Shown: in pieces, positions 13,590 through 35,649 of the stretch
Numbering within the stretch: position 1 is the stretch's first letter
Layout of the letters: each line of letters starts with the position of its first letter
From: Prostheceraeus crozeri
Lineage: Eukaryota; Platyhelminthes; Polycladida; Euryleptidae
DNA length: 64,000 nucleotides
Direction: 5' to 3'
Assembly (NCBI GenBank): GCA_907163375.1
Contig: CAJQUW010011276.1
Span: 186,001-250,000, forward strand
Notes under the pieces: generated by a model
Databases searched by the model: none
Seen by the model: the letters and a program-made list of their open reading frames with translations, nothing else
What the model was told of the DNA's origin: nothing
Translations under genes and position numbers: made by a program

Positions 13590-13595
13590 TCTGCT
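13590..13595. repeat. Target-site duplication, left (element A)
   Basis: TCTGCT immediately precedes the AGTAGTAGCCCC terminus and is repeated exactly after the opposite terminus at 31798-31803. A 6-bp duplication is diagnostic of Polinton/Maverick integrases. Confidence 0.95.
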
Positions 13596-14560
13596 AGTAG
13601 TAGCCCCATTGCAGGCGCAAGGACAAAATGTGAAAGGATGAGTCATCATGCTGACTCAGCCCCCCCCCCCTGGCGAGAGGAAGGAAGTGGCCAAGGATGT
13701 GCTGGGAGGAATGGGTCGTGAGGAGAAAACTGGTCCCTACCCCCCCCCTATGATAGAAAAGAAGGAAGGAGGAGTGATGAGGCAAGGGGTGGAATCTCTG
13801 AAAACGTCAGAGTTAGAAAAAGGCGGGTATTGGATGTTTTGGGATGAGAAAGGCAGGCATTCGGCATGAAAGAGGTCTCGGATGGGAAAATGAAGGACGG
13901 ATTCGGAATTTTTGGCCAATTTTGGGTTAGGAAAGATGTTTTCAGCGACATCGAAGAGGAAAAGTTTTGAAGACGTCCCCCCCTACCAAACTTCCAACTT
14001 TGGTGTTAGAAATCGTAGAAAGTCGTGCAATAGCTCATTTGAAAGCTGAGAATGAGAAAAATGCAGTGGAAAGGTCAGTTTGGACCACTTTTCCTGGGTT
14101 GAGGGAGGAAAATGGCAGGAAAACGTCAGAGTTGAAAAAGGCAGGTGTTGGAGGTTTTTGGATGAGAAAGTCCATGTTTCGGTATGAAGAAGGTCTCGGA
14201 TGGGAAAACAGAGTACAAATTCGGACGTTTTGGCCACTTTTGGGTCTAGGAACGTCTTCCCAACTCAATCGGAGAGAAAAAGTTCTGACCCCGCCCTCGG
14301 CAACGATCTTCCAAATTTGGTTGTAGACATCGTAGAAAGTCGTGCAATAGCTCGTTTGAAAGCTAAGAGTGAGACAAATTCAGTGAAAAACATAGCTTGC
14401 TCGTATCTGCCTTCGTTTAGAGGTGAGACTTTATTGAAATTTTGGACATTGACGAAAAAACGACAGAGTTAGAATGTTTATGAAAATCGCTCTAGCGGGT
14501 GAAGCAAGCCTCGGACGGGAAATCAGAGACCAGATTTGGAATCAGCTTGCCATTCTGATT
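13596..14560 (+). repeat. Left terminal inverted repeat of element A
   Basis: Matches the complement of 30634-31797 from the terminal AGTAGTA to about CAGCNTGCCATTCTG. It contains a C-homopolymer run (13661-13670), two TGASTCA sites (13640 and 13652) and internally repeated blocks of roughly 200-330 bp that share TCGTAGAAAGTCGTGCAATA, GAGTTGAAAAAGGC-like and CTCGGATGGGAAAA. Related blocks continue to about 14770 beyond the paired region. Long frames in it are probably by-products, because both strands stay open. Confidence 0.9.
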
Positions 14561-16847: not shown

Positions 16848-16934
16848 TGATGACCTAGTCTTTCAATGCATATCAGCAAGTAGTATCCTGTAAACACTAG
16901 CTATCAAATTTTACTCTACCTTTACAGAATCATC

Positions 16935-18037
16935 ATGACTAAAACTCCGCGCTTTATTGTTACTCAATGCTCCTGCGGTAGATTAACAAGGGGCAGCGAA
17001 TACCGCAAGCATATCAAAGAGGGGACGCTGGACCGACATGAGAGAGTGCATGTTTTTAAGGTCTGTGTTCATCATAGGGTGGTGTGTGATGAGGATGATG
17101 TTGAGGGTTTCCGGAAGGCGCACGAATCTTGCCCATCCGGAAACATTGGAGCGAAGTCGTTTCGTGAGTGGATGAGTGAATTAATTAAGGCGAAGGAGGA
17201 GTTGAATGCAGCAGATAGAAGTATTGAGGGTGCTGTAGCGAAGGATCGGGAGGTAGTGGTGAGTGAACAGGAAGTAGAGGTAGAAGGAGTGATTGAGCGG
17301 GCGAGTGATGAGACAAGGAAGTTGATGGTCTCATTGTTTGGGAGTGAGTTGTCTGATGAGTCGGATGGTGAGGTGGCTGAGCCTGTAGCGACATCATCGC
17401 CTAGGAAAGAGGCGCATGATACGGAGGCGTTTGTGAGATTAAAGGATCGTATGATGGATATGGAGAGTGTGAATAGAAAAGTTCTGAAGGAGAATGATGA
17501 GTTGAAGGCTAAGGTTGAGGGTATAAAGGTGATGAGGGAGGAGTTGGAGGAGATGCGAGTGAAGGAGCAGGAGTGGTTGAAGGAAAGGAGTGGTATGATG
17601 AAGTGAGTGAAGGCGCTTGAGGGCTTACAGTTCGAGTTGATACGTGAGAAGAATGAGGTGGAGCGGATGCGAGGTGTGGTGAAGGAAGTGGAAGAGACGA
17701 AGGTGATCAACAGGCGGTTGGGGAGTGAATCGGAAAAGTTGCGAGAGGTTGAGAGAAGGGTGAAGAGGAAGAGAGTGTATGAGGTCCACCTTCCCCTCTT
17801 TGAAAACAACATCTGCGATGTGCCGACCCTCACAGACGACCCCAATTCGACAGAAACATGTTATGAAGGCAAAGGTGTGCGATGTCTCCACATATCCATT
17901 AAAATGAATGGTGATTTGGAAGACTTCGTCGTCCTAAAAGTTGTAAAGAAAAAGCCGAGTAAGTTGCTTCGACATGATCATTTCCTTGCCGCTTTTAATC
18001 TCCTATTCTTTTTCTTTCAGAGTTTTTGCAGAAGTGA
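16935..18037 (+). CDS. Unknown zinc-binding/coiled-coil protein, spliced
   Basis: I do not recognise this protein. The ATG at 16935 follows a good splice acceptor by seven bases. Residues 1-70 are Cys/His-rich (QCSCGRLT, HIKEGTLDRHERVH, CVHHRVVC, HESCP), so a zinc-binding fold is likely. Residues 75-224 are acidic and strongly helical with heptads, a predicted coiled coil. After 224 residues a TGA (17604-17606) interrupts the frame, which then stays open and coiled-coil-like to about 17958, where a GTAAGT donor and an acceptor at 18020 define a 62-nt intron and a stop at 18035. The TGA overlaps a GTGAGT donor (17603), so splicing 17602 to 18021 instead would remove it and append about 89 residues ending at 18288. 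First rightward gene, driven by the TATA box at 14823. Confidence 0.6.
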
Positions 18038-18556
18038 GAGCGTCGGTGGACGGAGAACGACCCATGGGCTCTTTTAAGGGCCAACCTTCTAATGCAGCTA
18101 AAGTGGTCCCAAGCCCGCCACATATCTTCGGATATGGAATGCAGAGGGGAAGAAAGATGATGAATGGAATGAAATGGGAGGCCACCCTTGCGCCACACGC
18201 AACACATCACAGATTTCTCTCTTCGCTAGTGAACAAGCTCTTGTCAGTGTTGTACAAAAGTTTTACTGTAGCACAGGTTGATGTATAGTTAGAAAAGTTT
18301 GATCATGATGTTTTATGAAACACGCATGTCATAAATGTAAGCGTGAGTGTAGTCAACTACTTTTTACCGCGACGCACGTTTGTGAAAATAAAGTTTGATC
18401 ATTGAAGTTGTATGACTGATCGAACTCACAGCAGCATTAGAAAGTTTTATCGAAAAGGTTTTACTGCACAGTGTACATTGTCTTGTAACTTACTTTCACA
18501 GCATTGGAAAGTTTAGCACAACACAAGTGTCATGAAAAAATACTTTATTTAGTCCT
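18038..18556. other. 3' flank of two convergent genes
   Basis: AATAAA at about 18386 lies downstream of the first gene. On the opposite strand, two TTTATT blocks (18543-18565) give AATAAA signals for the leftward gene ending at 18557. No separate gene is seen. Confidence 0.5.
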
Positions 18557-19021
18557 TTATTTAACATCATTGAAACCCACTTTACTAATAGCAATGACAA
18601 TATGGTTTATTTTATTCAGAAGCAAATGATCGCCGTAACCATGAATGTTGTCTATCCGAGAAATAATATTCCGCAGATGTCGTGTATAAAACTCAGAAGC
18701 ATCAGTAACATATTCTTGTCCGTAGGAAGGAAATTGAAAATCAACACTTTCCACTTCTTCACCATCTGGAAAATAAATGTAATTGACATGTGCAATTAAA
18801 TGAGCCTTAATGAGACTGTCTTTGAAATAAGATATCAACTCTGTAAATATTTTTCGTGTGTAGTCTAAACATGCTTCCAATTCTGTCTCCTCCCTTTGAA
18901 ACTCAAGGATGTAATCTTGTATTAAGTCTCCGAAGCTCTCTTGATGAAAACGAATCGTGCAATCATCATGTTTCAATGCATTGACTTCAGGTGCCATGGT
19001 TGAGTCTATTCTAAACAACAT
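18557..19021 (-). CDS. Stand-alone PolB-N-domain protein, 154 residues
   Basis: The frame is intact. Its body (about residues 20-150) resembles three other segments of element A: the protein at 30168-30659, the fragment at 27640-27978, and a domain inside the polymerase (nt about 20930-21360). Shared features are an RFHQESFGDLIQDYI-like start, a central helix, a beta-rich block after LIAHVN, and a terminal HLRNIISRI / LLLNKINHIVI block. Stop at 18557 is followed by AATAAA. It is divergently transcribed from the polymerase, with about 110 bp between start and the opposite TATA box. The role is unknown; as a copy of a polymerase domain it may bind the polymerase, DNA or the terminal protein. 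Confidence 0.75.
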   Translation of the reverse strand: MLFRIDSTMAPEVNALKHDDCTIRFHQESFGDLIQDYILEFQREETELEACLDYTRKIFTELISYFKDSLIKAHLIAHVNYIYFPDGEEVESVDFQFPSYGQEYVTDASEFYTRHLRNIISRIDNIHGYGDHLLLNKINHIVIAISKVGFNDVK

Positions 19022-19168
19022 TTTTGCCTAACACGATTTCCATAACGTGTTACAAATGTGCGTGCGCACATCGGGAACTCTAGCTCGTCTGTGATTGGAC
19101 GAGAGGTCTGATCCATTCGCCGCTTAGGAAAGTCTTATAAAAAGCAGTGCACCAGCTCTGTTCTTCAC
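19022..19168. promoter_or_regulatory. Divergent promoter between PolB-N protein and polymerase
   Basis: On the plus strand TATAAAAA (19136-19143) lies 30 nt before TTCACATT, the probable start of the polymerase transcript. On the minus strand CCAAT (complement of ATTGG at 19093-19097) serves the leftward gene. Between them is a perfect inverted repeat, ATGTGCGTGCGCACAT (19056-19071), a plausible factor-binding site. Confidence 0.65.
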
Positions 19169-19201
19169 ATTTATCTTTCACAAGGTGAGTGTCGGTGAGC
19201 T

Positions 19202-19213
19202 CCTGCTATCAGG
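19202..19213 (+). promoter_or_regulatory. CTAT-loop hairpin H6
   Basis: CCTG-CTAT-CAGG, 4-bp stem. A weaker CTTGCTATCACA follows at 19231. Confidence 0.5.
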
Positions 19214-19268
19214 TTGTTTTCATGTAGTCTCTTGCTATCACATCTTCTGCTCATAAAACATATCATCG

Positions 19269-19420
19269 CTGTAATACCTCCTTTGCTCGAGCGTTCCTTC
19301 GGGACGGCGGGTACTGCCGTAGAGGGATTGTGTTGCACGGGTTGTTCGTCGTTTGTTAGACCGAAACCTCTGTGCCGTTGCTCATGTTGGGCGTTCGACT
19401 TCATACTCAACGTGACGCTT
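19269..19420 (+). ncRNA. Structured element SE, copy 2 (polymerase leader intron)
   Basis: Counterpart of 15938-16091, with the same conserved blocks in the same order and different linkers. The hairpin ACGGC/GCCGT has loop GGGTACT here versus GGACGAT in copy 1, and CATGTTG pairs perfectly with CAACGTG. Confidence 0.5.
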
Positions 19421-19618
19421 TCTCTCGCCAGGTCAGAGTACTTTAGCCATTCGACAAAAGTTAGTCTTTATGATATGGAGTAGAGTGAAATGTAATTCAT
19501 TAGATGTCACTTCAATGATTGTTCCCATGATAAACGTTGACTAGGCAAATGAAACGATTCTCATCTTTCCTTTTCAGTGATTGAAGTTTTACAATTCATT
19601 GCCTGCTAACTATCCGAC

Positions 19619-22600
19619 ATGGAGTTCATGAAAATTGAAAATTATCGCATTGCTGCTGAGATGGAGAAGGCTACCATCCAGCAATGTAAGTATTTGTATC
19701 AAGGTTGATTATATTACTAACATCATTAGGGTAGACATCCTCATTAAAATCAAGAGTCCCTCCCTTATTTTGTTCATGTTTAAACCGAATCCAAATTTTA
19801 CCTCTGCTCATCTTTGCTGTCATTCTTTTTCAGTGCATGAATGCATTCGTAGTGGGGAACGTGTCCCCCAAGGAGCAATCGGGCAAGCTTACGAGCGGCT
19901 TGGCAAGTGTAAGTATCCTCACCTATGAGAGTTGGAATGTCATGTTTTAGCACTTCTGCATCCGTATAGCTTACTCTCTATCATTATTATCTCTGCAACC
20001 TCTAATCTCTCTTTCCTCTCTACAGATATGGCGAAGGTGAAGAAGTGGGAGGAAGCCGCGAGGCAGAGATTCGAAGCTGAAATTCCGACCCTACCTTCCC
20101 GCTCATCTACCTCCGCCCAAGGTGCGACCCCTCTCTCGGGCATTGTCATCGCCCCACCTCCACCGCCTGCTCCGCTCCCTGCACCCGTCCCTGTGCCAGT
20201 CCCTGCTCCTCGTCATCACGTCCCTCCGACAGCGAAGCCCAGGACCCTTCCACCCTCGGCTCGCGTCCCTCTCCTGCCTCCTCCGCGCCCATCCTTGCTG
20301 CCGGAGATCAATTCATTAGATGGTAAGTAACAATGATTGGGAAATAGGGGGATAAGACTTCAAACTTGAAATGTTGATCATGTTACTAATCTCTTTTCTC
20401 TTTTTCTCAACAGATCTGGCGGTCTACCTCCTGGACGGCGACGTTCCCTCCCGTCCCATCATCATCCCTGCATCACCACCACCACCACCACCACCTGCAG
20501 TGGCCGAACTCCCTCTCCTCTCCGTCAAGTCGGTGGAGAGACTGTTGGAGCAGGATGAGCTGGAGATAGTGGGAGAGGAGAGGGAGATGGAAGTTGAAGA
20601 GGAGGACTTTCGATGCCAGCGGTGTGACAGGGTCTTCGCCTCAGCCTACAGTTTGAGGCGTCACACCGCTGGCCATGCCTGCAGGGGAGGAAAGCGCCGA
20701 CCGATCCCTCAACGGCCCAAGTGTGAAGGTTGTGGACGCACGTTCTACAACAGCACCAACTTGCGAGTCCACATCGAAGGCGGTTCCTGTGGCAGTGTGA
20801 GGCAACCACCGACAACAACAGGTAGGAAGCATCCTTCATCGCACGTCGGCTTTTCCTGTTCTTCGTGTCAGAAGACCTTTCCTACAGAGTTTGTTCTTTC
20901 TTCGCACACACTCTGTCACACTCATCTCACTGAGCTTTACACTGACAACAATGTTACTCTAAGGCTGAGCAAGTTTTCCCTTGAGAGGCTCGTTCGCGAT
21001 TATCAGTTAGAAAGCTCTAAAGCTGTGCAAGACATTCGTCCTTTCTTGATGAATAATATAGGCTTAATTCATCAAATGTTGGCGAGATTAGATAGATTTT
21101 TACTTAAGGGCATGTTCTATCTCACTGCTCGTTTCAATAAGGTAGACAGTAGCACGGGAGAAGTAGAGTCCACTGTGACCATTAGGATAGCCTCCTGTGC
21201 TGCTGATCTCATAGGTGATGTAAACGAGTGGATAGAGAGACATGCGACCTATCTCGTCAGCAACTTAAATAAATTTAATGAAAGAGACAGCGGTCTGGTC
21301 TTTGATGGGATAGACAAAGTAGACATCAAAATAAATCTTTTAGAAAATTTACAAGGGAGCGGTTGTTTCACCCTCCCCAAAGCACTTTATGACAAAAAGG
21401 CTGTCGTCAATGTAGAATGTCAGTCCCAGTGTTTCAAGTATGCCGTCCTCTCCATTCTTCACTACAATGATATAAGGTCCATCGTGAACGAATCACTCAC
21501 TATCGTGAATGGGAGGATGAGCTTAAGTTTGATGGGTTAGATGTCAACACATTAGACTTTAAAGGCATCGCCCAATTTGAAAAATTGAATAATATTAAGA
21601 TTGTCATCCATCTCTGGGAAAAAGGTCTGAAGGGCGTTAGGTATAATAATCGCCAAAGTAACTTCGACCGGGTTGTCAATCTTCTCCTAGTCTATAGCGA
21701 CAGCCACCCAGAATGGCATTATTGTGGCATTCCTAAAATTTCAAAGTTATACCATCATCAAACTGCATACAGGAATAATTTCTACTACTGTGATCGCTGC
21801 ACATGGCGTTTCACATCTAAACCATATTTTGAACAGCATTACGAGTGGTGCTCTCGGGGTAAGCTTCAAATGGAAGTCATGCCCAAAGATAAATTTTATA
21901 GGTATGAAGAAAACGGCAATGAGCTCAGTCCCATATGTACCATCTATGCGGACATTGAATGTTATATTGAACAAGAAGACCTAAGTCATGAGCCAGCAGC
22001 CATTGCCTGCTATGAAGTCTGGCATCCATATTATAGGAACCAAAATAAAATGCATGTGTGGCAGGGCGAGGAGTGCGTTGAAAACTTCCTCAACCTTTTA
22101 CATAGGAAAGCCCGTTTTCATCAACGCTATGAAATAGGAGCTAACTAGGAAACCCATGTGCTTCACAGAAGCCGATAAAATCAAGTTTGATAGGACCACG
22201 GAATGTCCACGCTGCTGTTCATCCTTTGATGATCAGCAACATAAGAAAGTGAGGGACCATTGCCATCTCAGTGGTAAATTTAGGTCTGCCTTATGCAGTA
22301 AATGCAATGTGAAACTTAGGCTCAAACGGCGAACGCTCCCCGTCATCTTTCATAACTTCAAATGTTATGATGCTCACATCATCATTCGCCATGGATTCGG
22401 TAAAATGAAATCCTGGTCATCCAAAGTGATTGCACAAAGTAAGGAAAAATTAATGTGCATCACTGCTAAAGTCCAAGTCGATAAGACGAAGGAGGGGAAG
22501 CCTGTCTTCTATGACATAAAGTTTCTAGACAGTTTCCAGTTTATGTCTTCTTCCTTAGCCGCATTGGCTAGTAATTTAGAAACATTTCCCCTCACTCAAT

Positions 22601-24291
22601 ATTTAAGGAATGACTATCCCAACATAAGTGACAGTCTGATGCGACGGAAAGAGGTGTTTCCTTATAGTTATTTTAGTTCAATGGATACATTGAAAGAAAC
22701 ATCGTTTCCGTCCATCGATAAATTTAAAAATGATTTGACGGGTGAGGACTGTTCGCTGGATGAATATAGGCATGCAGAGCAACCATGGTCAGAATTTACG
22801 TGTCGCACTTTTGGTGACTACATTCTTGCCTACTTAAAATAATATGTCTATCTGTTGGCTGACGTATTTGAGACTTTTAGGAAAGTCACATTAGAACAGG
22901 ACGCCTTAGAACCCGTCCATTTTGTTAGTCTGCCGGGTCTGTCTTATCAGTCAGCCTTCAAGATGACGAAAGAGAGCATTAATTTACTTCAAGATGCAGA
23001 AATGTACACGTTATTTGAACGTGGTATTAGGGGTGGCTTGACATTTGTCAACAAACATGTTGTCAACAGCACCCAAGACATAGGATCGACCATGCATTTA
23101 CTGTACATAGACCAAAATAATTTGTATGGGAGTGCACTCTCCAAGCCTTGGAGATGAGACCGACATAGGTTATTTATTTGAAGTCGACCTCATCTATCCA
23201 GACTGTGTTAAGAATAGGACCGTTGATTTTCCTCTCGCACCCGAATCTGGCATAGTCAGTCCAGATATGTTCTCTCCCTTTATGGAAGAACACAATACGC
23301 AGTATGAGGTGGAAAATGACTTGAAGTATAAAGCCACTAGGAAGTTGTTGCTCACCCAATTGAACAAGCAGCATTACATCGTGCACTATTCCATCCTCAA
23401 ATTCTATCTAGGTATGGGGATGCAACTTGATAAAGTCCATCGCGCTATCCAGTTTAGGCAGAAGCCCTTTCTGAAACCGTATATAGAATTTAATAGTAAG
23501 AAACGGGCTGAATCCAAGAATCCTTTCGAAAAGGACTTCTTTAAATTTAAGAATAATGCCCTCTTTGGTAAAACCATGGAGGATGTAAGAAAGCGCATGG
23601 ACTATCTTATCGTCAATGATCCGGAAACGAGTATCAAGTTATGTCGCTCGCCGTTGTTTTGCCACCATGATGTCATTTCCGAAGACATCACTGGTTTTAA
23701 AATGCTAAAATCTAAAGTAGAACTTTGTAAGCCCATTTATGTCGGTCAAGCTGTCTTGGATCACTTCAAGTTAGAAATGTATAAGTTATTTTACCACACT
23801 TTTAAGTTATGTCCACTTCTCCAGCGCGTGGAATTAGTAGGAGGTGATACCGACATCTTCTTCCTAGCTTTGACAACCACGAGCCAAGTCAAGCAGGAAG
23901 ACATTTTAAAATATTTAGCACCCAAGTTTGATAGTTCCAACTATCCCACTGACCATCCGCTTTACTCTACCCCAAATAAAGCGAAGCTTGGCTGCTTCAA
24001 GGATGAGTGTGCCGGCAAACAGATAGAGGAGATGATTTTGCTTCGCCCCAAGATGTTCTCCATGAAGCTAAATCCTCAGAGCTTTCTATAAAACGGGCGA
24101 AAGACATCTCGAAGTCAATCGTTAGAAAAATGACACATAGGGACTATCAAGATGCCTTAGATTCTCTTAAAATTAAAGACAAGCGAAGCTGGATGAGTCC
24201 TAACCACTTATTACCGTACGGCCATCCAGACACTCATCTACCTCCACCCAAGAGACAGAAACTTTCTCCTCCTCCGTCCGGCGATGTCTGA
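19619..24291 (+). pseudogene. Protein-primed DNA polymerase B with zinc fingers, intron-containing, degraded
   Basis: Family B polymerase expected to replicate the element. Exons: 19619-19685, 19834-19908, 20026-20322 and 20414 onward; all three introns have GTAAGT donors, good acceptors and phase 1. Order: Pro-rich linker; three C2H2-type fingers (nt about 20611-20930); the N-terminal domain also found free-standing; a cysteine motif with QCFKYAVLSIL; exonuclease motif I (ADIE, about 21948); an endonuclease VII-like zinc motif (VRDHCHLSGKF, about 22250); FHNFKCYDAH (Exo II); DQNNLYG (motif A, about 23112); NNALFGKTMEDVR (motif B); GDTD (motif C, about 23845). Lesions: frameshifts near 21480, 22146, 23150 and 24070, and TAA at 22840, where the Exo III Asp also appears changed. 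The protein ends in a KRQK basic/proline-rich tail. Several one-base indels could be assembly errors; the TAA is harder to explain so. Confidence 0.9.
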
Positions 24292-25184
24292 TGATGAATG
24301 CTTCCTCTCTGTTGTAGTTGATGTTTTGCTTTTTCGCTCCATGGCGTTTTCTATGGGGTGTTGTGAGTGAGTGCCTTGTACCATGCGTCCAACTCCTGAT
24401 CACTTCAATCATGACTTACATATAAACCGGTTTTTCCTGACGTTGCTTTCCCCCTACACATGAGTGACTTTGTTTTCTCCCTACATATCAGTGACTTTGT
24501 TTTTTCCGGTGATGTGAGCCATAAAAAATTTGTTTTCTGCTACCATCAGTATTAACTGCATGTGACTGTGATTAAAATCGGTTGTGTTGATGAATAACAT
24601 ATCATGTACATACTGTGTTGTTTTCCTTTAACATAAAGATGGGATTCTCACTCATTAGACAGAAGTAAAAGTTTTAATCATTTTGTAAGATGGGTAGGGT
24701 TAGAAATAAAATTATTACCATATCACTGTTTTTAAGATAGGTGAAATACAAATGAAGTCGGATTCACTTCACTGTTTGTAAAGTTAGAAGTAAAGTTGAC
24801 GTTTGTAAAGTAAGAAATAAAGTTGATGATTGTAAAGTTAGATATACAGGTATAACCATATCACTGCTTGTAAGATAGGTGAAATATAAATGAAGTCAGA
24901 ATCACTTCACTGTTTGTAAAGTTAGAAATAAAGTTATCACCATGTCGCTGTTTGTAAGATAGGCGAAATATAAATGAAGTCAGAATCACTTCACTGTTTG
25001 TGAAGTTAGAAATAAAGTTGATGATTGTTAAGTTAGAAATAAAGTTATCACCATGTCGCTGTTTGTGAGATAGGTGAAATATAAATGAAGTCATAACCAT
25101 GTAGGAGTTTGCAAGTTAACATCCTCAACAACGAACGTAACATCATGACAATTTCTTCGGCTTAGGAAACATCAACCACTTTGC
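24292..25184. repeat. Convergent intergenic region with degenerate tandem repeats
   Basis: Downstream of the polymerase. From about 24680 to 25100 a set of imperfect repeats alternates two motifs: TGTTTGTAAAGTTAGAAATA and CTGTTTGTAAGATAGGTGAA, the second followed by ATAAATGAAGTCAG. Unit lengths vary (about 50 and 130 bp). Open frames in it come from the repeat. No gene is seen. Confidence 0.8.
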
Positions 25185-25530
25185 TGACTCATGTCTATAA
25201 ATAGCTCTGACTCATAAAGGGATAAGGCGCCAGTCATACGAATCTAATCAGTCTTGTTCAACCTTTTCACCGATACGTGTCTGAGCGTAACATTCAACAT
25301 CGATGGCGCCTCACATCAGACAGCGTGACCTTTTCACCGACATGTGTGTGTGGGCGTTATTTATCAGACAAAGCGATGGCGCCTCACGTCAGACAGCGTG
25401 ACCTTTTCACCGACAAGTGTGTGGACATCATTTCATGTCTATAAATAGCGCTGACTCATCATAAAGCGAAGAACCTTGTTGATGACCTTTTCACCGACAA
25501 GAGTGTAAGCGATAGTTCATTGCGATGACT
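25185..25530 (+). promoter_or_regulatory. Tandem orphan promoter array (TATA, TGACTCA, ACCTTTTCACCGA)
   Basis: Two identical CATGTCTATAAATAGC boxes (TATAAATAG at 25196 and 25440) are each flanked by TGACTCAT (25185, 25208, 25452). ACCTTTTCACCGA occurs four times (25261, 25328, 25401, 25485), each followed by a GTGT-rich tail, and GATGGCGCCTCAC twice. All point rightward, yet no rightward gene follows; the next gene converges from the other side. A non-coding transcript, a lost gene or a replication origin are possible. Confidence 0.7.
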
Positions 25531-25551
25531 CATTCAAAACACATCATTTGA

Positions 25552-26091
25552 TTAACACGATTCTATTAACTGTGACTCATACAGATAACGCATTAAAGAT
25601 TCAACAAAGTCAGCTACTTTACTGATATCACGTAAACCAGTCATGATACAATGTCCGTTGTGAAACACTGAAATATGTACAGGATGCCACTTCCGAATCA
25701 GAGCAGCAGGAAAGAGTTCAGTTTCATAAAATATACAATGATTACTGCTTTTAATGTTGGCTAGATTCACTAACATCTTCAATTGAACAGACACTACTAT
25801 ATTCTTCAATGTCAGGGGGCTGAGGCGGAGATGAGGCATGAGTGTTCGCATTTTCTTGACGACTTCGTAACACATGGACTGCATCACGAAATGATAGAGG
25901 TTTCCTAGGACTTGGATTTTGCCGCAGCGAAAGATTTGAAGACTTCGACCATTGCTCATGCGAATGACCAACATTTGCGGACGACCGCGATGATAGAGTG
26001 AATCGGGAAGATGGGTATGCAACTGCTCTAAATCGATGTCTCTTCTGAGATTCATTTCGCGCATGGCGTTGATGATGCGGATGGGGAGCAT
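25552..26091 (-). CDS. TATA-binding-protein-like protein
   Basis: A 179-residue intact protein that spans the whole TBP core fold, two direct repeats. Repeat 1 (about residues 5-95) has DLEQLHTHLPDSLY, then QMLVIRMSNGRSLQIFRCGK and IQVLGN, matching the TBP pattern of basic strand, IFxSGK and a following TG-like turn. Repeat 2 (about 95-175) has LKNIVVSVQLK, then YETELFPAALIRKW, then HISVFHNGHCIMTG, which tracks the TBP signature YEPELFPGLIYR and FxSGKxxxTG closely. In eukaryotes TBP bends TATA DNA and recruits TFIIB. The start at 26091 follows a TATA box by about 40 nt. It probably directs transcription of the element's own TATA promoters, or competes with host TBP; this role is inferred. Divergence from cellular TBP is large, so recent host capture is unlikely. 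Confidence 0.85.
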   Translation of the reverse strand: MLPIRIINAMREMNLRRDIDLEQLHTHLPDSLYHRGRPQMLVIRMSNGRSLQIFRCGKIQVLGNLYHFVMQSMCYEVVKKMRTLMPHLRLSPLTLKNIVVSVQLKMLVNLANIKSSNHCIFYETELFPAALIRKWHPVHISVFHNGHCIMTGLRDISKVADFVESLMRYLYESQLIESC

Positions 26092-26126
26092 GACTCACAA
26101 ATGACATGAGGGTTGAGTGAACTTCC

Positions 26127-26134
26127 CTTTTATA
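26127..26134 (-). promoter_or_regulatory. TATA box of the TBP-like gene
   Basis: TATAAAAG on the minus strand; the start codon at 26091 would lie about 13 nt after the predicted transcript start. An ATG at 26107 in another frame would be just at or before the start site. Confidence 0.7.
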
Positions 26135-26538
26135 CTTCTACCATGAGGGTTTTGGAATCACAATGTAGCAGTGATCATTATGTAGAATCATCTCTTGAAT
26201 GCGAATAAATACAATGCCGTCTCCTAAGTTAATGACACGGCAAGAGTGGGATAGGATTGCGCGATGCAACCTTCGTAGATGAAAGCGTTCTAGAGTTATC
26301 TGAAGTTGACGTTTCGTATCATGAAATGTAACACACTGACTTTTCTATGATACATGGAGCCATGCTGATAATTTCCACATGATTAAAACCTGAGTGAAGA
26401 AGGGCATGCCTAAGAAAGAAGGAGAGAGAGTCATATTCATGTGTGGCATGGTGAGTGTACCTTTTCTTTCTTGATACGGTGGCCGTTAGGCCGTGGTCTC
26501 ATAAAGACCGATGGTGCGTTCTCAGTGTGTGGAGAGTG
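26135..26538. other. Intergenic region upstream of the TBP-like gene
   Basis: No gene recognised. The region lies between the start of the TBP-like gene and the stop of the next leftward gene. It holds several ATGRTACATGG-like words but no clear array. Confidence 0.4.
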
Positions 26539-27105
26539 TTACTGTAGTTGATCATCATCAACATGGACATCATTTTTAAAGGTGATGGAGACAAGATAGG
26601 GATTCAACGTAAACAACCTTCCGTCCCTGCGCGGACCCATGTAAATGGCTTGAATTTTAATTTCGAAGGAGTAGAATCCTTTTCCCAAAATGGGGAGTGG
26701 CTTGCAATTGAGTAAGTCGAATTCGCTGCCCTCCTTTTCATGGATGATGAGACAGTGTCTATTAATATTAACATACATGTATCGTCTTTCCATGATGGGA
26801 ACTTGTGGCCGCTTCCCATTGTGTCGAACAATTTCTTTGGGAATGGTGAGATTTTCTATCAGGAATGTTTCAAGAGTATTGAATTGTAACCGTGTCCAAT
26901 AGTCTAACGGCGCACATACGGCCAGTCCATACTTTGTTGACATAACCTTTAGATAATCTATCCGATGACTTGGAGTTTTTATGGTCACGGCTTCTCCATG
27001 ATGAGTTATCTTTTGATTGAAAGCATTTTTACCCGATGCTAAAGTAAGGGAGTTCAGTGTACCCAGTGCGAGAGCAGAGGAGTTGATGGCTTCGAGCGAC
27101 TGCAT
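26539..27105 (-). CDS. Unknown protein, paralogue of 28861-29543
   Basis: I do not recognise the family. The frame is open from 27174, but a TATAAAAC box at 27157-27150 places the transcript start near 27127, so the first usable ATG is 27105 (188 residues). The protein is beta-rich with no membrane segment or signal peptide. Its second half carries KGFYSFEIKIQAIYMGPRRD followed by GRLFTLNPYLVSI, matching GAGFYSFHIEVPAVYVGP in the paralogue; an upstream block (PLDYWTRLQFNTLETFL) also has a counterpart. The pair may be structural or single-strand DNA-binding proteins; that is only a guess. The C terminus is acidic. Confidence 0.65.
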   Translation of the reverse strand: MQSLEAINSSALALGTLNSLTLASGKNAFNQKITHHGEAVTIKTPSHRIDYLKVMSTKYGLAVCAPLDYWTRLQFNTLETFLIENLTIPKEIVRHNGKRPQVPIMERRYMYVNINRHCLIIHEKEGSEFDLLNCKPLPILGKGFYSFEIKIQAIYMGPRRDGRLFTLNPYLVSITFKNDVHVDDDQLQ

Positions 27106-27149
27106 GGTTAGCGCAAGGACGGAAATGATTGCCATGAGCTCAGTCGTCC

Positions 27150-27157
27150 GTTTTATA
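27150..27157 (-). promoter_or_regulatory. TATA box upstream of the 27105 start
   Basis: TATAAAAC on the minus strand, inside the longer open frame, which argues for the downstream start codon. Confidence 0.65.
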
Positions 27158-27219
27158 AGCAGACCTAGCTCCATTCACATACGTTTCCCTTTCCTCATTT
27201 TCTCTGTCTTTGTTATGTA

Positions 27220-27560
27220 ACAAAGAGTTATCGCACGTGAACTTTTGACTGCGTGGGTGGAAACCTTCCCTCTTACAAAGTCGTTCTAGTCCTCACAAAG
27301 AATTCAGTGGCACGCCCCTTCTAGCGAACAAAGACGCATTTATTTATCTAACAAAGAGCCTGATAGTAATGTACAAACCGCAATGACTCATGTTGTGACA
27401 CGCCCCCTTTCTCGAACAAAGACGCATTCATTTATCTAACAAAGAGCCTGATAGTAATTCACAAAACGCAATGACTCATGTTGCTCTATACACCATTACA
27501 AAATACTCAGTGAAAAGAAATCTCTATTGCATCTACACAATGTGTCGACGATCAAACAAA
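27220..27560. promoter_or_regulatory. Upstream region with 88-bp direct repeat and AACAAAG cluster
   Basis: Two 88-bp direct repeats (27311-27398 and 27399-27486), about 90% alike, each contain CACGCCCC, GAACAAAGACGCATT, TAACAAAGAGCCTGATAG and AATGACTCATGTTG. In all, the word ACAAAG occurs about seven times and TGACTCA twice. This looks like a duplicated enhancer upstream of the 27105 gene. Confidence 0.7.
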
Positions 27561-27639
27561 GTCGTGGATGTAAACACACTCATTTAAATCATGATATATT
27601 TAACAACGTATGAATTTCCTTCCATCGTCCCTTCCATTT

Positions 27640-27978
27640 TCACCATAGTTTTCCCGCATGTCGTGCATAAGATAGGTCACTAAGAGTAGTCCATTCTGAG
27701 CAATAGAATTCAAAACGAAGTGGCTTTTGCAAATCTTTCAACTCAATATAAGCAATTAGTCTACCCTTCACATCTTCAGGTTGTAAACTCTCTATTAATA
27801 TTTTGAAGAGAGGGAGACTTTTAGTTGCTGCCACTTTCATATCATTCATATCTACTTTAAATGTAAGTTTCCAAGCTTGTAAAAATCCATCGAATCCTTG
27901 TTTATCAAGAGTCAAATGACACATGTGGTTGCTTAAGGTACGATGCACCATCATAAACGTTGTGACTATAGATTTCAC
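27640..27978 (-). pseudogene. PolB-N-domain protein, truncated relative
   Basis: A 112-residue frame. The segment SLPLFKILIESLQPEDVKGRL and the following IAYIELKDL align with the FQQLMDSLMNKDVKGRLVAEI region of 30168-30659, and a short ARHAGKL end aligns with RHMAKI. It then stops about 45 residues early compared with its relatives, so it is a 3'-truncated or mutated copy. No TATA box is obvious upstream. Confidence 0.55.
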
Positions 27979-28102
27979 ATTGCTTCAATGACTTCCACTT
28001 TGAATAAAACAGAAATAACAATCATGTTCCACTGTAAGTCTATTCAACACCAGACAAAATTTACAAGTACAGAATACACTTCATAAAATGATCATCACTC
28101 AT

Positions 28103-28687
28103 TCACAAGGAGTAAAAACATGTTTTACATAGACCCATGCTGTTGACAATAATATAGATACACTTCATGAACGTCATAGAGACTACAATGCCAGCGTGAA
28201 GAGAGTTTTGCAATGTAGGTAGTTTTATTTCTAGTTTTACAATGGGATGGTGGTCTGTACAGGTGATGTCTCTCGCCGAAACATATTGCCATGTCAAAAA
28301 TCATTCATCTCTAAACTTCTTTTGATCACAATGCATATGATAGTCTTGTCTTACACGATCTACCCAACATGGTAAATATAAATTATCAATGTGCAACTGA
28401 AGTGTTGTTGCGTCTCGTTCAGCTTCATTTCCTAATATTCTAACAATATGAAAACCTGACAGCCACCGTTTGAAATCACTTATAAAATACGTTTCATTTA
28501 CAAATCCAATATGAATCAAAATAGAAAGATCAAGTCCATACACATGACGTCGTGATCATTTGTCTTTGTGTGGAGGACAGTAGGCAAATCTATGATATAC
28601 ACTAACAACAGTTTGATCACTTTCTCTCATTGCAATAGCACTCAGTTCCAGCATGGGTGTTCCCTCACTGTCTATGAAGATGACAAC
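28103..28687 (-). pseudogene. Putative DEDD-type exonuclease-like gene, two in-frame TGA
   Basis: One minus-strand frame runs from 28687 to 28103 with TGA codons near 28557 and 28300 and no frameshift. It opens with VVIFIDSEGTPMLELSAIAM, where D-x-E in a hydrophobic strand looks like exonuclease motif I of the RNase H/DnaQ fold. Later blocks are RRHVYGLDL, DFKRWLSGFHIVRILGN and, near the end, HHPIVKLEIK and LQNSLHAG. The assignment to DEDD exonucleases rests mainly on the first motif and is tentative. A possible acceptor (TTTGATATTGTAG) precedes the first codon, so an upstream exon may exist. Both TGA codons could come from CGA or TGG by a single transition. Confidence 0.4.
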
Positions 28688-28709
28688 CTACAATATCAAA
28701 AAGACTTCA

Positions 28710-28866
28710 TTACAAAATAATACATTGAGCAGGAACTTTACAAGGATGTCTGTCCTTTACATAACAAAAGATACATACAACATGATGACAAAGTTTTATT
28801 TGAACATAACGCGCAAGGCCGCGTTTTCCACATTCACTACATACTAACTGATTACAATACTTAAGA
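28710..28866 (-). CDS. Small RING-like cysteine-rich segment
   Basis: About 50 residues with CSECG, then LCHHVVCIFCYVKDRHPC and a final C. The spacing C-x2-C, C-x-H-x2-C-x2-C, C-x4-C approaches a RING finger. It overlaps the 3' end of the upstream gene in another frame and lies just before the exonuclease-like frame; it could be an exon of either. The start is not resolved. Confidence 0.35.
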
Positions 28867-29543
28867 TTTCTCTTTGGTGGTAACACCATCTTTCTTTGAT
28901 GTGCGACGACGTTTAGGTTTAGTGACAGGTTCTTGACACTCTTTGACACAAGAATCAATGACTTTCTCAATGTGATCAAGTCCTGTTAACTCAGGTTGAT
29001 GATGAATTTGAGCAATGCGCAAATTGAGAGAAATCAAATTCCCGTCAGATTGATGAGGTCCCACATAAACAGCAGGCACCTCAATATGAAATGAATAAAA
29101 GCCTGCACCTAGCGATGACAATTCTGTTTCAACTGACTGTTCAACTGTCACTCCTGAAGTGACTTTACAATACTTGCTTTCTAAAATATAGCAGCGAGTG
29201 CCGCGATACAATGGTTTATAATAAGAAGTTTTCTTTTCTGGCCACCACTGTAATAGTTCAGTAAGAATAAGAGTCTTTTGCCTCACAAAGTCTTCTAAAA
29301 TGTCAAGCTGCTGACGCAACCATTATCAATAGGGATACTCAGGTTTTGACCGCAACGATTTACTTGCGTATCCACTTTTGGTAAATATACCGACGGCGTT
29401 TGAAGATAGAGTCGAACACCGTTGCAGCGCACTTGTTGTTCGTAGGTAAGATAGCCGTGAATTACCTTTTCAATTTTCGGATTCCACAGCTCGAGATGTT
29501 GAGGATTGAGTGATGCAGCAGTTGGAGTAGGATTCATGGCCAT
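28861..29543 (-). pseudogene. Unknown protein, paralogue of 26539-27105, one frameshift
   Basis: Start at 29543 follows a splice acceptor (TTCTTTCGTTACAG ending at 29550), implying a 5' exon or leader. The first part (to about 29310) and second part (from 29319) are in different frames; a single missing base near 29315 explains this, and the paralogue is continuous there. Shared motif: GAGFYSFHIEVPAVYVGP, then SLNLRIAQI. The C terminus (KPKRRRTSKKDG) is strongly basic, like a nuclear localisation signal, whereas the paralogue ends acidic. Function unknown. Confidence 0.6.
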
Positions 29544-29626
29544 GGCAGTCTGTAACGAAAGAATACCACTAAGTACATGCATGATCATCAGAGAAAAGAA
29601 AATTGTTAGCTTAGCAGTGACATTTG

Positions 29627-29644
29627 AGGTCCTTAAGAGGACCT
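29627..29644. other. Perfect hairpin between leftward genes
   Basis: AGGTCCT-TAAG-AGGACCT, a 7-bp stem with a 4-nt loop, just after the stop of the 29903 gene. It could be an RNA processing hairpin of the histone-mRNA kind, but the flanking sequence does not match that consensus. Confidence 0.6.
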
Positions 29645-29663
29645 TTCGGAGCGTTCACAGGAT

Positions 29664-29903
29664 TTAAAGTTTATCACCAACGTCTAACTCTTCTTCATCG
29701 TCCAGTAAATTAAATGTCTTGGGATTAGGACCCCAATTGCGTTTCAATTCCCTAAAAGACTTAAAGGTAAAGCGTCTAGGTGGTGGAGGCGGTGGTGGCG
29801 ATGGTTCAACAAAATAAGCTTGTACAATCATCGGCCACACACTTTCTTGCGTCTCTCTTCTAAAATGTTGGTAAGGTTTAGGCCAGACAGTCATGACACT
29901 CAC
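29664..29903 (-). CDS. Small proline-rich, acidic-tailed protein, unknown
   Basis: A 79-residue intact frame: an N-terminal aromatic region (WPKPYQHF, VWPMIVQAYF), a run of seven prolines at about residues 36-42, a basic RRFTFKSFRELKR block and an acidic tail (DDEEELD). No known family is recognised. A TATA box and initiator lie about 95-125 nt upstream, which supports expression. Confidence 0.6.
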   Translation of the reverse strand: MSVMTVWPKPYQHFRRETQESVWPMIVQAYFVEPSPPPPPPPRRFTFKSFRELKRNWGPNPKTFNLLDDEEELDVGDKL

Positions 29904-29996
29904 TTGTAAATTTGCGAACAGGATTGATCAGACAAAGTTGAGAGGGGAGAATGGCTTCAGCAAGTCACACACACTTTCCAAGTCAAGAGAATGAAA

Positions 29997-30029
29997 TGAA
30001 GAGAAAATGGGGAGACGTCTGCTTTTATA
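29997..30029 (-). promoter_or_regulatory. TATA promoter of the small acidic gene
   Basis: TATAAAAG (30029-30022) followed by TTCATTTC with the A 32 nt downstream. A TGAGTCA lies a little further upstream (30051-30057). Confidence 0.7.
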
Positions 30030-30167
30030 GTCTCCTGCGAATCCACATTTGACACTATGTGAGTCAATCAGAGACCTCCGTTTCACCCCTGACTTCGTTG
30101 CGACAGAGAAAGGGAGGCACGCGGACGACTGACTCATGAATGCTTTTTCCAAATCTTGTAGTGAAAT

Positions 30168-30659
30168 CTAGTTTAGCACATTGAGTTGAATATGAATGTG
30201 TTTTATGCGACATAAGAGCAAGTTGGATTCATGCTCATGAAATGAATCTAGTCGAGATGCAATTTTCGCCATGTGTCGCTGATAGAAATCTTTGGGATCA
30301 TGTATCGTCTCCGCAGAATAGGATGCAAAATGAAACACTGCACGTTCACCTGCATGTTCATCAGTCACTTTCTCAAATTTAATCTCTGCAACTAATCGTC
30401 CTTTCACATCTTTATTCATCAAACTGTCCATGAGCTGTTGGAAAACGAAGTAACCTTTAGCGATAGCAAATTCTAAGTCTGCCTTTTCATGATGAAAGGA
30501 GATGATGTAGTCCCAAATCACACCACGAAGACTTTGTCGATGAAAACGCAGTGAACAAAATTCATTCGTAAACTTTACTGCTTCTGTTATCTTTCTTCCC
30601 TTCACTTCGGAGACATAGCATGAATGGCATTCAGATGCAGAATGGCACGCTGATTCCAA
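30168..30659 (-). CDS. Stand-alone PolB-N-domain protein, 5' end unresolved
   Basis: About 160 residues. From CSLRFHRQSLRGVIWDYII to the end it aligns along its length with the 18557-19021 protein, including KDFYQRHMAKIASRL and LLLCRIKHIHI. There is no in-frame ATG near the beginning: the frame runs into the right TIR, whose inner edge lies at about 30634. The original start was either replaced by the TIR or supplied by splicing. The rest of the frame is clean. Function unknown, see the 18557 entry. Confidence 0.65.
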   Translation of the reverse strand: MESACHSASECHSCYVSEVKGRKITEAVKFTNEFCSLRFHRQSLRGVIWDYIISFHHEKADLEFAIAKGYFVFQQLMDSLMNKDVKGRLVAEIKFEKVTDEHAGERAVFHFASYSAETIHDPKDFYQRHMAKIASRLDSFHEHESNLLLCRIKHIHIQLNVLN

Positions 30660-31797
30660 ATCTGGTCTCTGATTTCCCGTCCGAGGCTTGCTTCACCCGC
30701 TAGAGCGATTTTCATAAACATTCTAACTCTGTCGTTTTTTCGTCAATGTCCAAAATTTCAATAAAGTCTCACCTCTAAACGAAGGCAGATACGAGCAAGC
30801 CATGTTTTCCACTGAATTTGTCTCACTCTTAGCTTTCAAACGAGCTATTGAACGACTTTCTACGATGTCTACAACCAAATTTGGAAGATCGTTGCCGAGG
30901 GCGGGGTCAGAACTTTTTCTCTCCGATTGAGTTGGGAAGACGTTCTTAGACCCAAAAGTGGCCAAAACGTCCGAATTTGTACTCTGTTTTCCCATCCGAG
31001 ACCTTCTTCATACCGAAACATGGACTTTCTCATCCAAAAACCTCCAACACCTGCCTTTTTCAACTCTGACGTTTTCCTGCCATTTTCCTCCCTCAACCCA
31101 GGAAAAGTGGTCCAAACTGACCTTTCCACTGCATTTTTCTCATTCTCAGCTTTCAAATGAGCTATTGCACGACTTTCTACGATTTCTAACACCAAAGTTG
31201 GAAGTTTGGTAGGGGGGGCGTCTTCAAAACTTTTCCTCTTCGATGTCGCTGAAAACATCCTTCCTAACCCAAAATTGGCCAAAAATTCCGAGTCTGGCCT
31301 CCATTTTCCCATCCGAGACCTCCTTCATGCCGAATTCCAGCCTTTCTCATCCCAAAACATCCAGCACCCGCCTTTTTCCAACTCTGACGTTTTCAGAGAT
31401 TCTACCCCTTGCCTCACAGAAAAACTCCTTCCACACCCACCTCACAGGAACCTCACAGGAATTTCCCCACCCAAAATTTCACGTAGATTCCGAATCTGGC
31501 CTCCATTTTCCCATCCGAGACCTCCTTCATGCAGAATTCCGACCTTTCTCATCCCAAAACCATCAACACCCGCCTTTTCCAACTCTGCCGTTTTCAGAGA
31601 TTCCACCCCTTGCCTCATCACTCCTCCTTCTTTCCTTCCTTCCAGAGGGGGGGTAGGGACCAGTTTTCTCCTCACGGACCCATTCCTCCCAGCACATCCT
31701 TGGCCACTTCCTTCCTCTCGCCAGGGGGGGGGCTGAGTCAGCATGATGACTCATCCTTTCACATTTTGTCCTTGTGCCTGCAATGGGGCTACTACTT
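30634..31797 (-). repeat. Right terminal inverted repeat of element A
   Basis: Complement of the left TIR. It is about 200 bp longer because one internal block (CATCCGAGACCTCCTTCATG, then TCTCATCCCAAAAC) is present once more and an extra CACAGGAA-containing stretch is inserted near 31420-31460. It ends GGGGCTACTACT. Confidence 0.9.
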
Positions 31798-31803
31798 CTG
31801 CTG
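31798..31803. repeat. Target-site duplication, right (element A)
   Basis: TCTGCT, identical to 13590-13595. Confidence 0.95.
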
Positions 31804-33541: not shown

Positions 33542-34268
33542 AGTAGTATATAGCGTGACATCCGGCGCGACGCTTCGCTTCGCTTGCGCCGGATGTCACA
33601 CTTTTGCGGGTTTTTTCAAAATTTTCAAAAAATCAAAATTTCAAAAAATTGGGTAGATTTCAAATTTCACGTGGCCGAAGGCCGAAGGGCGAAAATTTAG
33701 GAAGTGACAAATTTTCAAAAATTTAGGCGGTCTCAAAATATCCCGTAATCGAAAATTTAGGCGGTCTTAAAATATCACGTAATCTAAAAAGTATCACGTG
33801 GTCGAAAAATATCACGTACCCGAAGGTCGAAAATGTAGGCAGATGAAAATTTAGGTAGCCCAAAAAATATCACGTTGACCTAATATAGCAGAAGATTGTA
33901 TTCAAAATATTTATTCAAAATATTCATTTAAAAATGGAAGAAACAAAAGTGGATGAAACAAAAGTGGAAGGAACCTCAAGAATATATCCTTCGTTATCAT
34001 ATGAACGTAGTTCTACTTTAATGGACATTGAAAAGATTAACATTGAAAAAATGAATAAAGAAAAACACAAAGATAGAGTACGTTATATGAAAGATAAGGA
34101 ATCTCAATTATTATTAAGATTAGAGCATTATAAAAAATTAAGAAAAGGATGGACTAAAGTTAAGAATGTAACACAAGGAATTGGCATATTCTTAACAATA
34201 AGTTTAGGTGCTTTAACAATTGTTATATCTTCAGGTGTTTTAGTAATTCCAGTAGTTGCTACAGCTTT
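33542..34268 (+). repeat. Left terminal inverted repeat of element B
   Basis: Includes a terminal hairpin, a subterminal AT-rich region with repeated AATATCACGT and GAAAATTTAGGCGGTC words (33640-33890), and the first 111 codons of the gene at 33934. Confidence 0.95.
33555..33599. other. Terminal hairpin, left end of element B
   Basis: GTGACATCCGGCGC and its exact complement enclose a 17-nt loop of repeated CGCTT; the stem starts 13 bp from the terminus. The mirror copy is at 51041-51090. Confidence 0.95.
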
Positions 34269-34662
34269 AACAGGTACGGGTGTTTTTGCAACTTCACTTG
34301 TTACAATGTTAGATAAATCTTTAATAACTAAGAAACGAAAATCATTAAAAACTAAACATTTACATATTAAAGAAGTCTATGACAAATTGCATTACTACTT
34401 TCAAAGAGTATGTGATGATAATGTTATTACGTTAGATGAGATTGAAAAATTTGATCAAATAGCTAATGAAGTAAATCAAATATCATTTCAATTACAGTCA
34501 GAAAAAGTTGATGATAAAAATACAAAGGATGGCAAAATTTCGAGTGATGGTAAAACTTTTACTGATGGTAAAATTTGTAATGAAGAAAATGATAAAATTT
34601 TTTTAGAAGAGCTAAAAACTTTAAGCGAAAATTTAAGCAAAACTTTATTAAACAAAACTTAA
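33934..34662 (+). CDS. Unknown membrane-associated protein
   Basis: 242 residues. Residues 1-70 are charged and helical, likely a coiled coil; residues 82-127 are a long Gly/Ala/Val/Ile-rich hydrophobic stretch (two possible membrane helices); the rest is helical with a short repeated DGK motif near residues 199-213. The start lies in the TTTAAAAATG context shared by other genes of this element. The first 111 residues are inside the TIR, so a truncated second copy sits at the other end. It may be a virion membrane-active protein, by analogy with others in Polintons; no family is recognised. Confidence 0.75.
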   Translation: MEETKVDETKVEGTSRIYPSLSYERSSTLMDIEKINIEKMNKEKHKDRVRYMKDKESQLLLRLEHYKKLRKGWTKVKNVTQGIGIFLTISLGALTIVISSGVLVIPVVATALTGTGVFATSLVTMLDKSLITKKRKSLKTKHLHIKEVYDKLHYYFQRVCDDNVITLDEIEKFDQIANEVNQISFQLQSEKVDDKNTKDGKISSDGKTFTDGKICNEENDKIFLEELKTLSENLSKTLLNKT

Positions 34663-34783
34663 AACGAGAAACCTTTAAACGAAAAGATGTCAGACAACAA
34701 AGCAATAAAAAAATAATTTGTTCAGTAAAATGTTTTTGTTGTATTCCAATGTTACCACAAAATTCAAATATTATATTTTAAAA

Positions 34784-35605
34784 ATGGATAAAATTAAAGC
34801 TGATAATTTTAAAAGAATTAAACAATTAGAAGAGTTAATAAAACAAAGAAATATTATGAAAGAAAATTATCTTCAACATAGAATGATAAAAGCTGGTATT
34901 CAATCTGATATGTTTGAAAAAATGCAGCAAACCGAGCAAGCAAAAACTGATTTTGAAAAAACTATGAAACCATTTAAAACTCTCGAAAAAGAAAGTACAA
35001 ATAATGATAAACAAATTGATATAACAGATCCAGAACACAAAACTATATTAGATGACTATGGATTACTAGAATCAAACATTAATAAGAAATTACCAAAATC
35101 TATGCAATTTGAACATTCTATTTCATTTATAGATGGAAAAACAATACCTAGATTTTATCTCGGACAAAAAGAAATATTTCCACAACCCTTTCGAGGTTTA
35201 ATTTTTTCACCAGATAAATATCCTTTTAATTTAGATAGAAATTTTGTTGATCTTTTAAGAGGAGAAGATTTAAATAATTGTGCTGTAGAAGATCTCATAA
35301 AATATAAAGCTATTTTAGATAGAGTTGGTGCAGTAAAATCTCTTAGACGTTATAAACAATTAGAAAATTTATTATCATCGGGAGTTAAAGTAGGAAAAGG
35401 TTTATCTGAAAAACAGATAACAGAAACAACTGTATTTTTACCAGATGATCCACAAGAATTACTAAATAGATTAAATATTTTAATATCTGCAATAAAAGAA
35501 GGACATAATTCTAGTTTCAATGAAATTCATGTTATATTGAAAAGACTGTTAGAAAAGAAGATTCTAAATGAAGAGGATTATAAAAGTATAACGGGACATC
35601 TCTGA
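34784..35605 (+). CDS. Unknown Polinton virion-like protein
   Basis: 273 residues from the ATG at 34784, chosen because it sits in the TTTTAAAAATG context; the frame is open 22 codons further upstream. The N-terminal third (about 1-100) is a predicted coiled coil (KRIKQLEELIKQRN). The middle has PRFYLGQKEIFPQPFRGLIF and a DRNFVDLLRGED motif, and the C-terminal third is helical (QELLNRLNILISAIKEG). No known family is recognised. Position between a membrane-type gene and the penton gene suggests a structural role. Confidence 0.7.
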   Translation: MDKIKADNFKRIKQLEELIKQRNIMKENYLQHRMIKAGIQSDMFEKMQQTEQAKTDFEKTMKPFKTLEKESTNNDKQIDITDPEHKTILDDYGLLESNINKKLPKSMQFEHSISFIDGKTIPRFYLGQKEIFPQPFRGLIFSPDKYPFNLDRNFVDLLRGEDLNNCAVEDLIKYKAILDRVGAVKSLRRYKQLENLLSSGVKVGKGLSEKQITETTVFLPDDPQELLNRLNILISAIKEGHNSSFNEIHVILKRLLEKKILNEEDYKSITGHL

Positions 35606-35649
35606 TGTCTTTAAGGGTTTCGCCCGTAGCTGAAATATGTTGTTTCAAA

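Follow-up and report, generated by a model that had tools for sequence, protein, structure and literature searches.

Can a Maverick/Polinton-type element carry its own TATA-binding protein (TBP), and what would such a protein do there? This question is raised by a gene in the polyclad flatworm Prostheceraeus crozeri. The gene lies in a stretch of 64,000 nucleotides (contig CAJQUW010011276.1, positions 186,001 to 250,000 of the forward strand), referred to here as the window, inside an element with terminal inverted repeats that we call element A. At the level of sequence, it has an intact open reading frame (ORF) and two-repeat TBP homology, and other genes of the element surround it between the terminal repeats. 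The presence of a TBP of unusual type inside a Maverick-ended element is well supported. The evidence for the fold and genomic setting of this TBP is strong, and a promoter role is the best inference as to its function.

A first-pass annotation of the window had placed a TBP-like gene at 25552 to 26091 and stated that both direct repeats of the TBP core are covered. The ORF exists on the minus strand, where it reads from 26091 down to 25552 and encodes 179 amino acids from ATG to stop; the plus-strand frame contains stops. The Pfam search proposed in the annotation was run, and PF00352 was the sole family found, with a score of 75.1 bits, well past the curated cut-off of 22.9 (expectation value, E, 4e-21). 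The coverage of both repeats was borne out by the two stretches of this match and by a profile of 52 family sequences, which matched M. jannaschii TBP 2z8u over positions 3-175 (E 6.6e-21). Ten TBP models of NCBIfam matched the ORF at E 2.2e-17 to 8.3e-07, and none reached its curated cut-off. The best PDB sequence match was Sulfolobus TBP 1mp9 (E 5.4e-09). Up to E 1, this search gave 35 distinct sequences, 34 of which are named TBP, TFIID or constructs containing them, while the remaining one is ECU04_1440 protein by name. The annotated signature YETELFPAALIR is exact at residues 122-133, whereas the SGK-TG type is only loosely present: repeat 1 has CGKIQVLG and repeat 2 has NGHCIMTG. At all 8 contact pairs checked, the two repeats lie 89 residues apart, and at this spacing 9 of 86 residues are identical. 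Block shuffling of the element A interior gave an ATG ORF of at least 179 amino acids in 13 of 200 shuffles, and 7 such ORFs were observed in the real interior. A chance ORF is therefore excluded by the homology, not by ORF length.

Structure prediction on the 179 residues, which had also been proposed, gave a confident saddle with a predicted local distance difference test (pLDDT) score of 94.7. PDB matches at E <= 0.001 numbered 44 and were filled by TBP entries, and the rows below the TBPs were other folds. The TBP saddle is the fold predicted for the element protein with high confidence.

Element A occupies 13596-31796 (18,201 bp) and is bounded by inverted repeats of about 1 kb. It starts with AGTAGT and ends with ACTACT, and AGTAGTAGCCCC is present at both ends. 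Vertebrate Mavericks are described in PMC8097293 as having (AGT)2//(ACT)2 ends, 6-bp duplications and two modules, one with polB and one on the right, that are carried by different strands. Element A is like Mavericks and Polintons in its inverted repeats, its ends of the same type, its 6-bp duplication and its PolB segments. It is also like the vertebrate Mavericks in that the polB and right-hand modules lie on opposite strands and point to the centre, gene X1 being an exception. Unlike in Mavericks, the right-hand module of element A has TBP and genes of unknown function at the place expected for integrase and capsid. Pfam scans of the interior ORFs were run at E limits of 10, 0.1, 0.1 and 0.01. 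No integrase (rve) match was found in the 65 interior ORFs of at least 60 amino acids, a set that short-exon genes could escape, and the same ORFs gave no match to a capsid, where fast-evolving proteins can evade Pfam, or to an FtsK-type ATPase or a cysteine protease. Adintoviruses are characterised in PMC11071296 by a PolB with an N-terminal OTU-like domain, a recognisable hexon and an integrase with a chromodomain. The adintoviral hexon and integrase were not recognised in element A by the Pfam scans. The Polinton class given in the first-pass annotation is thus supported by the Maverick ends, the target duplication and the PolB segments, and for the integrase, capsid, ATPase and protease the Pfam scans gave no support.

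Table 1. Features of element A and its flanks, in window coordinates.
Feature	Position	Strand	Basis
Target-site duplication TCTGCT (6 bp), left copy	13590..13595	.	flank comparison
Left terminal inverted repeat, begins AGTAGTAGCCCC	13596..14557	+	two main pieces, 89.7 and 97.7% identical
Glu/Lys-rich ORF	16935..17606	+	no Pfam family above cut-off
Gene X1, free-standing domain X	18557..19027	-	5.7e-24 to X4
polB segment 1, carrying C2H2 zinc fingers plus domain X	20371..21540	+	zf-C2H2 6.8e-11; gene X4 matches domain X, 8.1e-11
Putative polB segment 2, other frame	21471..22148	+	position; weak Pfam matches only, C2H2 at 0.021
polB segment 3, with an endonuclease VII-like motif and the beginning of the PolB domain	22138..22842	+	Endonuclease_7 1.1e-05
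polB segment 4, past in-frame stop; DQNNLYG	22843..23157	+	phrog_1907 at E 0.15 only
polB segment 5, other frame; NNALFGKT and GDTD	23111..24091	+	Pfam, PHROGs and PDB without a polymerase match
Putative polB C-terminal segment, other frame	24007..24291	+	position only
TBP-like gene, one open frame	25552..26091	-	PF00352 E 4e-21, two stretches; model pLDDT 94.7
TATAAAA box, 43 nt upstream of TBP ATG	26128..26134	-	pattern scan, consensus match only
Gene Y1, function unknown, adjoins TBP	26539..27174	-	paralogue of Y2 stretch 28864-29322, 3.5e-09
Gene X3, free-standing domain X	27640..27984	-	5.3e-10 to X4
Gene Y2, paralogue of Y1	28861..29322	-	BLASTP among element ORFs
Gene X4, free-standing domain X, overlapping inner edge of right repeat	30168..30692	-	5.7e-24 to X1; 8.1e-11 to polB segment 1
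Right terminal inverted repeat, plus-strand end ACTACT	30638..31796	-	repeat comparison
Target-site duplication TCTGCT (6 bp), right copy	31797..31802	.	flank comparison

TBP sits between the PolB segments and Y1, X3, Y2 and X4, and is therefore a component of the element and not its neighbour. The polB reading is broken over several frames, with possible short introns of GT-AG type seen by eye in its 5' part. Segment 3 matched DNA_pol_B_2 at 2.7e-05, 2.1 bits under the cut-off, and the DNA polymerase group phrog_1907 at 5.7e-06. As regards the protein-primed PolB typical of Mavericks and Polintons, the PolB region shows these two matches and is split between frames. The DQNNLYG of segment 4 is taken by us to be motif-A-like, and the NNALFGKT and GDTD of segment 5 to be motif-B-like and motif-C-like, respectively. 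For segment 5, no polymerase match was found in Pfam or PHROGs, nor any PDB match at E 10.

The protein belongs to a family. A single-sequence search gave 54 proteins, all with a TBP domain and 39 to 96% identical to the element TBP. A profile search gave 258 proteins at E <= 1e-5; each of the best 120 of the 258 has a TBP domain, and the other 138 may include ordinary TBPs. No relatives were confirmed in viral contigs by scans with the TBP alone, two TBP alignments and two polB segments, and none was found in a scan of prokaryote genomes or in phage records, at the sensitivity of these scans. The alignment of 129 family sequences, in which the element TBP is P0001, has 6 invariant columns, and this family-wide constraint shows a function in the lineage. 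The same columns bear on the alternative that element A is dead and its TBP ORF, intact by chance or recently silenced, has no present function. The split polB and the hallmark genes missing from the Pfam scans are what this alternative would lead one to find, but the element A copy itself shares the invariant columns, and a relative in the protein database (P0002) is 96% identical to it. A relic is considered unlikely.

Residues were counted in the 124 of 129 rows with at least 155 amino acids and are given in yeast numbering; their roles in DNA contact, in the stirrup and on helix H2 are those known from TBP structures. In repeat 2, N159, V161, F190, P191 and F207 are kept in 124/124 rows and T215 in 123/124, and L205 is changed to A in 118/124. 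The TFIIB stirrup residues E186 and E188 are each present in 123/124. Repeat 1 keeps F116 in every row and N69 in 106 (17 gaps and one S). In the same repeat, F99 is replaced by P in 121/124, L114 by Q and V122 by Q in 124/124 each, T124 by L in 115/124, and A100 by E in 104/124 or Q in 17/124. K138 of H2 is replaced by E in 109/124. Three of the four kinking phenylalanines are thus kept, F99 being the one lost. The earlier reading of the gene as a TBP stands, but it made no mention that the N-terminal half has lost most of its TATA-contact residues. These replacements are fixed and not drifting, and the N-terminal half therefore appears to be under selection for another purpose. The loss of F99 informs DNA recognition more than TBP-family membership because TRF2-type members also deviate from the set of four kinking phenylalanines.

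The most likely reading of this pattern is that the protein would be an element-encoded initiation factor, which still recruits host TFIIB and reads an altered, asymmetric site. Judging from its fixed residues, the C-terminal lobe would bend and kink DNA at a TATA-like half-site as a normal TBP does, and host TFIIB would dock there through the fixed stirrup. The N-terminal lobe, by its own fixed residues, would read the other half, which is probably not a plain AT half-site. TFIIA, NC2 and Mot1 are partners of the TBP H2 surface, and having fewer basic residues on H2 may release the element TBP from one or other of them. Host TFIIB and RNA polymerase II would in this way be placed on element promoters, partly outside host TBP control. 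Taken together, it is probable that element A is a Maverick/Polinton-type element integrated here, that it encodes its own TBP in the right-hand gene module, and that this TBP acts as an initiation factor.

The same residues could serve interference with the host, in which the protein, instead of acting at element promoters, would vie with the host machinery for TFIIB, and perhaps for TBP sites, with host transcription reduced or rerouted as a result. A titrating decoy needs what is seen here, namely a stirrup that is kept while one half of the DNA face, along with the basic patch on H2, is altered. However, N159, V161, F190, F207 and T215, present in 123 or 124 of 124 rows, point to DNA binding, and a pure decoy need not keep them. 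Interference of this kind is regarded as quite unlikely.

The initiation-factor reading can also be compared with the promoters of the element, whose genes had been annotated as having clear TATA boxes. The box before the TBP ATG is present. A TATAAAA at 27157 (minus strand) lies 22 nt ahead of the second ATG of Y1 (27135), and a TATAAAW at 19136 (plus strand) precedes polB segment 1 by about 1.2 kb, where it is relevant only if short 5' exons are real. Overall, however, TATAAAW is only slightly in excess in element A (15 found vs 12.35 expected from shuffling), and in three other stretches of the window it is below expectation (24 vs 44.9, 10 vs 18.4 and 11 vs 16.0). Because TATAAAW barely exceeds the shuffled expectation, promoter architecture alone is insufficient for the case. 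GC-rich bases follow several TATA boxes; these sites were chosen post hoc and are a lead only.

The broader pattern TATAWAW occurs at 16 sites in element A, from 14823 to 30029, and at none in either inverted repeat. This distribution is relevant to a role in replication or packaging, in which the saddle would mark the element ends or an origin for PolB and not promoters. The TBP gene shares element A with the polB segments, and DNA-bending proteins help initiation in many systems. The empty repeats speak against such a role only if the protein prefers TATA-like sites, while a TFIIB stirrup would be unneeded for it. We consider a replication or packaging function very unlikely.

The origin of the gene was approached with a tree of 51 representatives of the 124 rows (at least 160 amino acids, thinned at 68% identity), four cellular TBPs and one TBPL1 sequence. 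A single branch, of support 100 and stem length 5.73, separates the family representatives from the other sequences. Human TBP, yeast TBP and TBPL1 join the family in an open polytomy that is separate from the archaeal TBPs. Without TBPL1, neither placement next to human TBP (approximately unbiased test, p-AU 0.482) nor next to M. jannaschii TBP (p-AU 0.383) was rejected. The element TBP is 19.5 to 24.4% identical to the four cellular TBPs compared, and the 19.5% to human TBP vs 80.6% between human and yeast rules out a recent copy of a host gene, which the first-pass annotation had listed as a possible refutation. A wider form of this idea is that the element took up a host TBP or a TBP-related factor such as TBPL1/TRF2. 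Elements do capture genes, TBPL1 has likewise lost kinking Phe residues, and the open polytomy leaves room for an ancient eukaryotic source, a TBPL1-like one included. Against it stand the exclusion of a recent copy and the well-supported long stem. Capture from a host is judged to be very improbable. TRF2/TBPL1 is a divergent animal TBP with altered DNA-contact Phe, like the element TBP, but the one sequence used falls outside the family clade on a branch of length 2.

Compared with cellular TBPs, both eukaryotic and archaeal, the element TBP has in common the two-repeat saddle, the C-terminal DNA face and the TFIIB stirrup, and differs in the other residues fixed on its N-terminal DNA face and H2 patch. 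Giant viruses and mirusviruses are also DNA viruses with TBP-fold proteins, but their genomes are far larger than element A. In BFVD, 45 matches were found at E <= 0.001, several named TBP or TFIID and others unnamed or otherwise named, and the best named match comes from Heterosigma akashiwo virus 01. The two best rows are 16% identical to the element TBP and the fourth 17%. Extracts of the literature describe TBP as an algal or giant-virus gene or a cited host gene (PMC4602308, PMC11464507, PMC12085832, PMC7786948), and algal and giant viruses with TFIIB beside TBP (PMC4602308, PMC11464507, PMC12085832). In the case of an algal virus, the virus-encoded TBP and TFIIB were proposed to redirect the host polymerase to viral genes (extract of PMC12085832). 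TBP is present in 59% of mirusvirus genomes, and the gene cluster in question occurs in 0% of the Nucleocytoviricota used for comparison (extract of PMC10132985), and TBPs in an alga were found in elements of putative mirusvirus origin (extract of PMC10675990). No report of TBP in a Polinton, Maverick or adintovirus was found in the literature surveyed, PMC8097293 included; the survey was of limited coverage and is no proof of absence. The text of PMC11071296 lacks TBP, TATA and TFIID, that of PMC10675110 lacks TATA, and the accounts of gene content in PMC6431247 and PMC4028283 report no TBP in such elements.

Several points weigh against an element-encoded initiation factor. In element A, Pfam identified neither an integrase nor a capsid, ATPase or protease, and its scans gave no TFIIB gene, unlike the algal and giant viruses in which TFIIB accompanies TBP. 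With polB in several frames, this copy may be dead and its TBP a chance survivor. Having lost T124 and one of its kinking Phe residues, the protein might bind TATA only weakly, and the excess of TATAAAW is slight. The link of the TBP family to Maverick-type elements comes from element A, the one copy covered.

Other features of element A were recorded. Domain X, of unknown function, occurs in three stand-alone genes (X1, X3 and X4) and in polB segment 1. Y1 has one database homologue, 94% identical and of no use for tracing linkage, and its fold model was discarded (pLDDT 32.1). A small ORF matched DUF3948 at 5.1e-05. Between polB and TBP, repeats of 131-nt and 50-nt families lie at 24694-25423, and two TATAAATAGC sites (25196 and 25440) are oriented rightwards with no clear gene downstream. 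Just inside the left repeat, two identical tandem units of 288 bp (14968-15543) are each matched by an Rfam tRNA model at 47.1 bits (minus strand); ARAGORN calls no tRNA. Among the 129 aligned family members, of which P0001 carries no contig entry, 21 have a longest contig that exceeds 10 kb; in 13 of the 21 its length falls in the range 12.6 to 16.7 kb, and the maximum is 24,690. These sizes fit element-sized genomes but prove nothing and were not counted as evidence.

The window holds further elements. Element B (33553-51092) is a second inverted-repeat element, AT-rich, with a possible TATATA duplication and an integrase. None of its 86 ORF stretches of at least 50 amino acids matched an element A ORF (BLASTP, E 0.01). 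In its ORF at 47303-48634 (plus strand, 443 amino acids), a single frame encodes both a phospholipase A2-like domain (PF08398, 2.1e-08) and the core of an rve integrase (1.1e-10). A transposase ORF, presumably Tc1-type, is nested in element B at 41308-42303 and has a near copy at 1627-2388. A third inverted-repeat pair (51643-58901) spans about 7.3 kb.

Few transcription proteins are as conserved as TBP. A large family in which one half of it is fixed and the other altered provides a natural experiment on how promoter specificity can shift with the polymerase interface left in place. It is tentatively suggested, as a possibility short of an even chance, that a whole Maverick-type lineage across animals or other eukaryotes has its own TBP class, through which these small elements would use host polymerase II under a promoter code of their own, with one half-site and the TFIIB dock kept and the other half re-specified by two fixed glutamines that replace hydrophobic groove contacts. 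If element promoters are what this TBP serves, elements of less than 20 kb would have become partly autonomous in transcription, by a step for which the literature surveyed names only mirusviruses and giant or algal viruses. Such a gain would bear on the origin of viral transcription systems.
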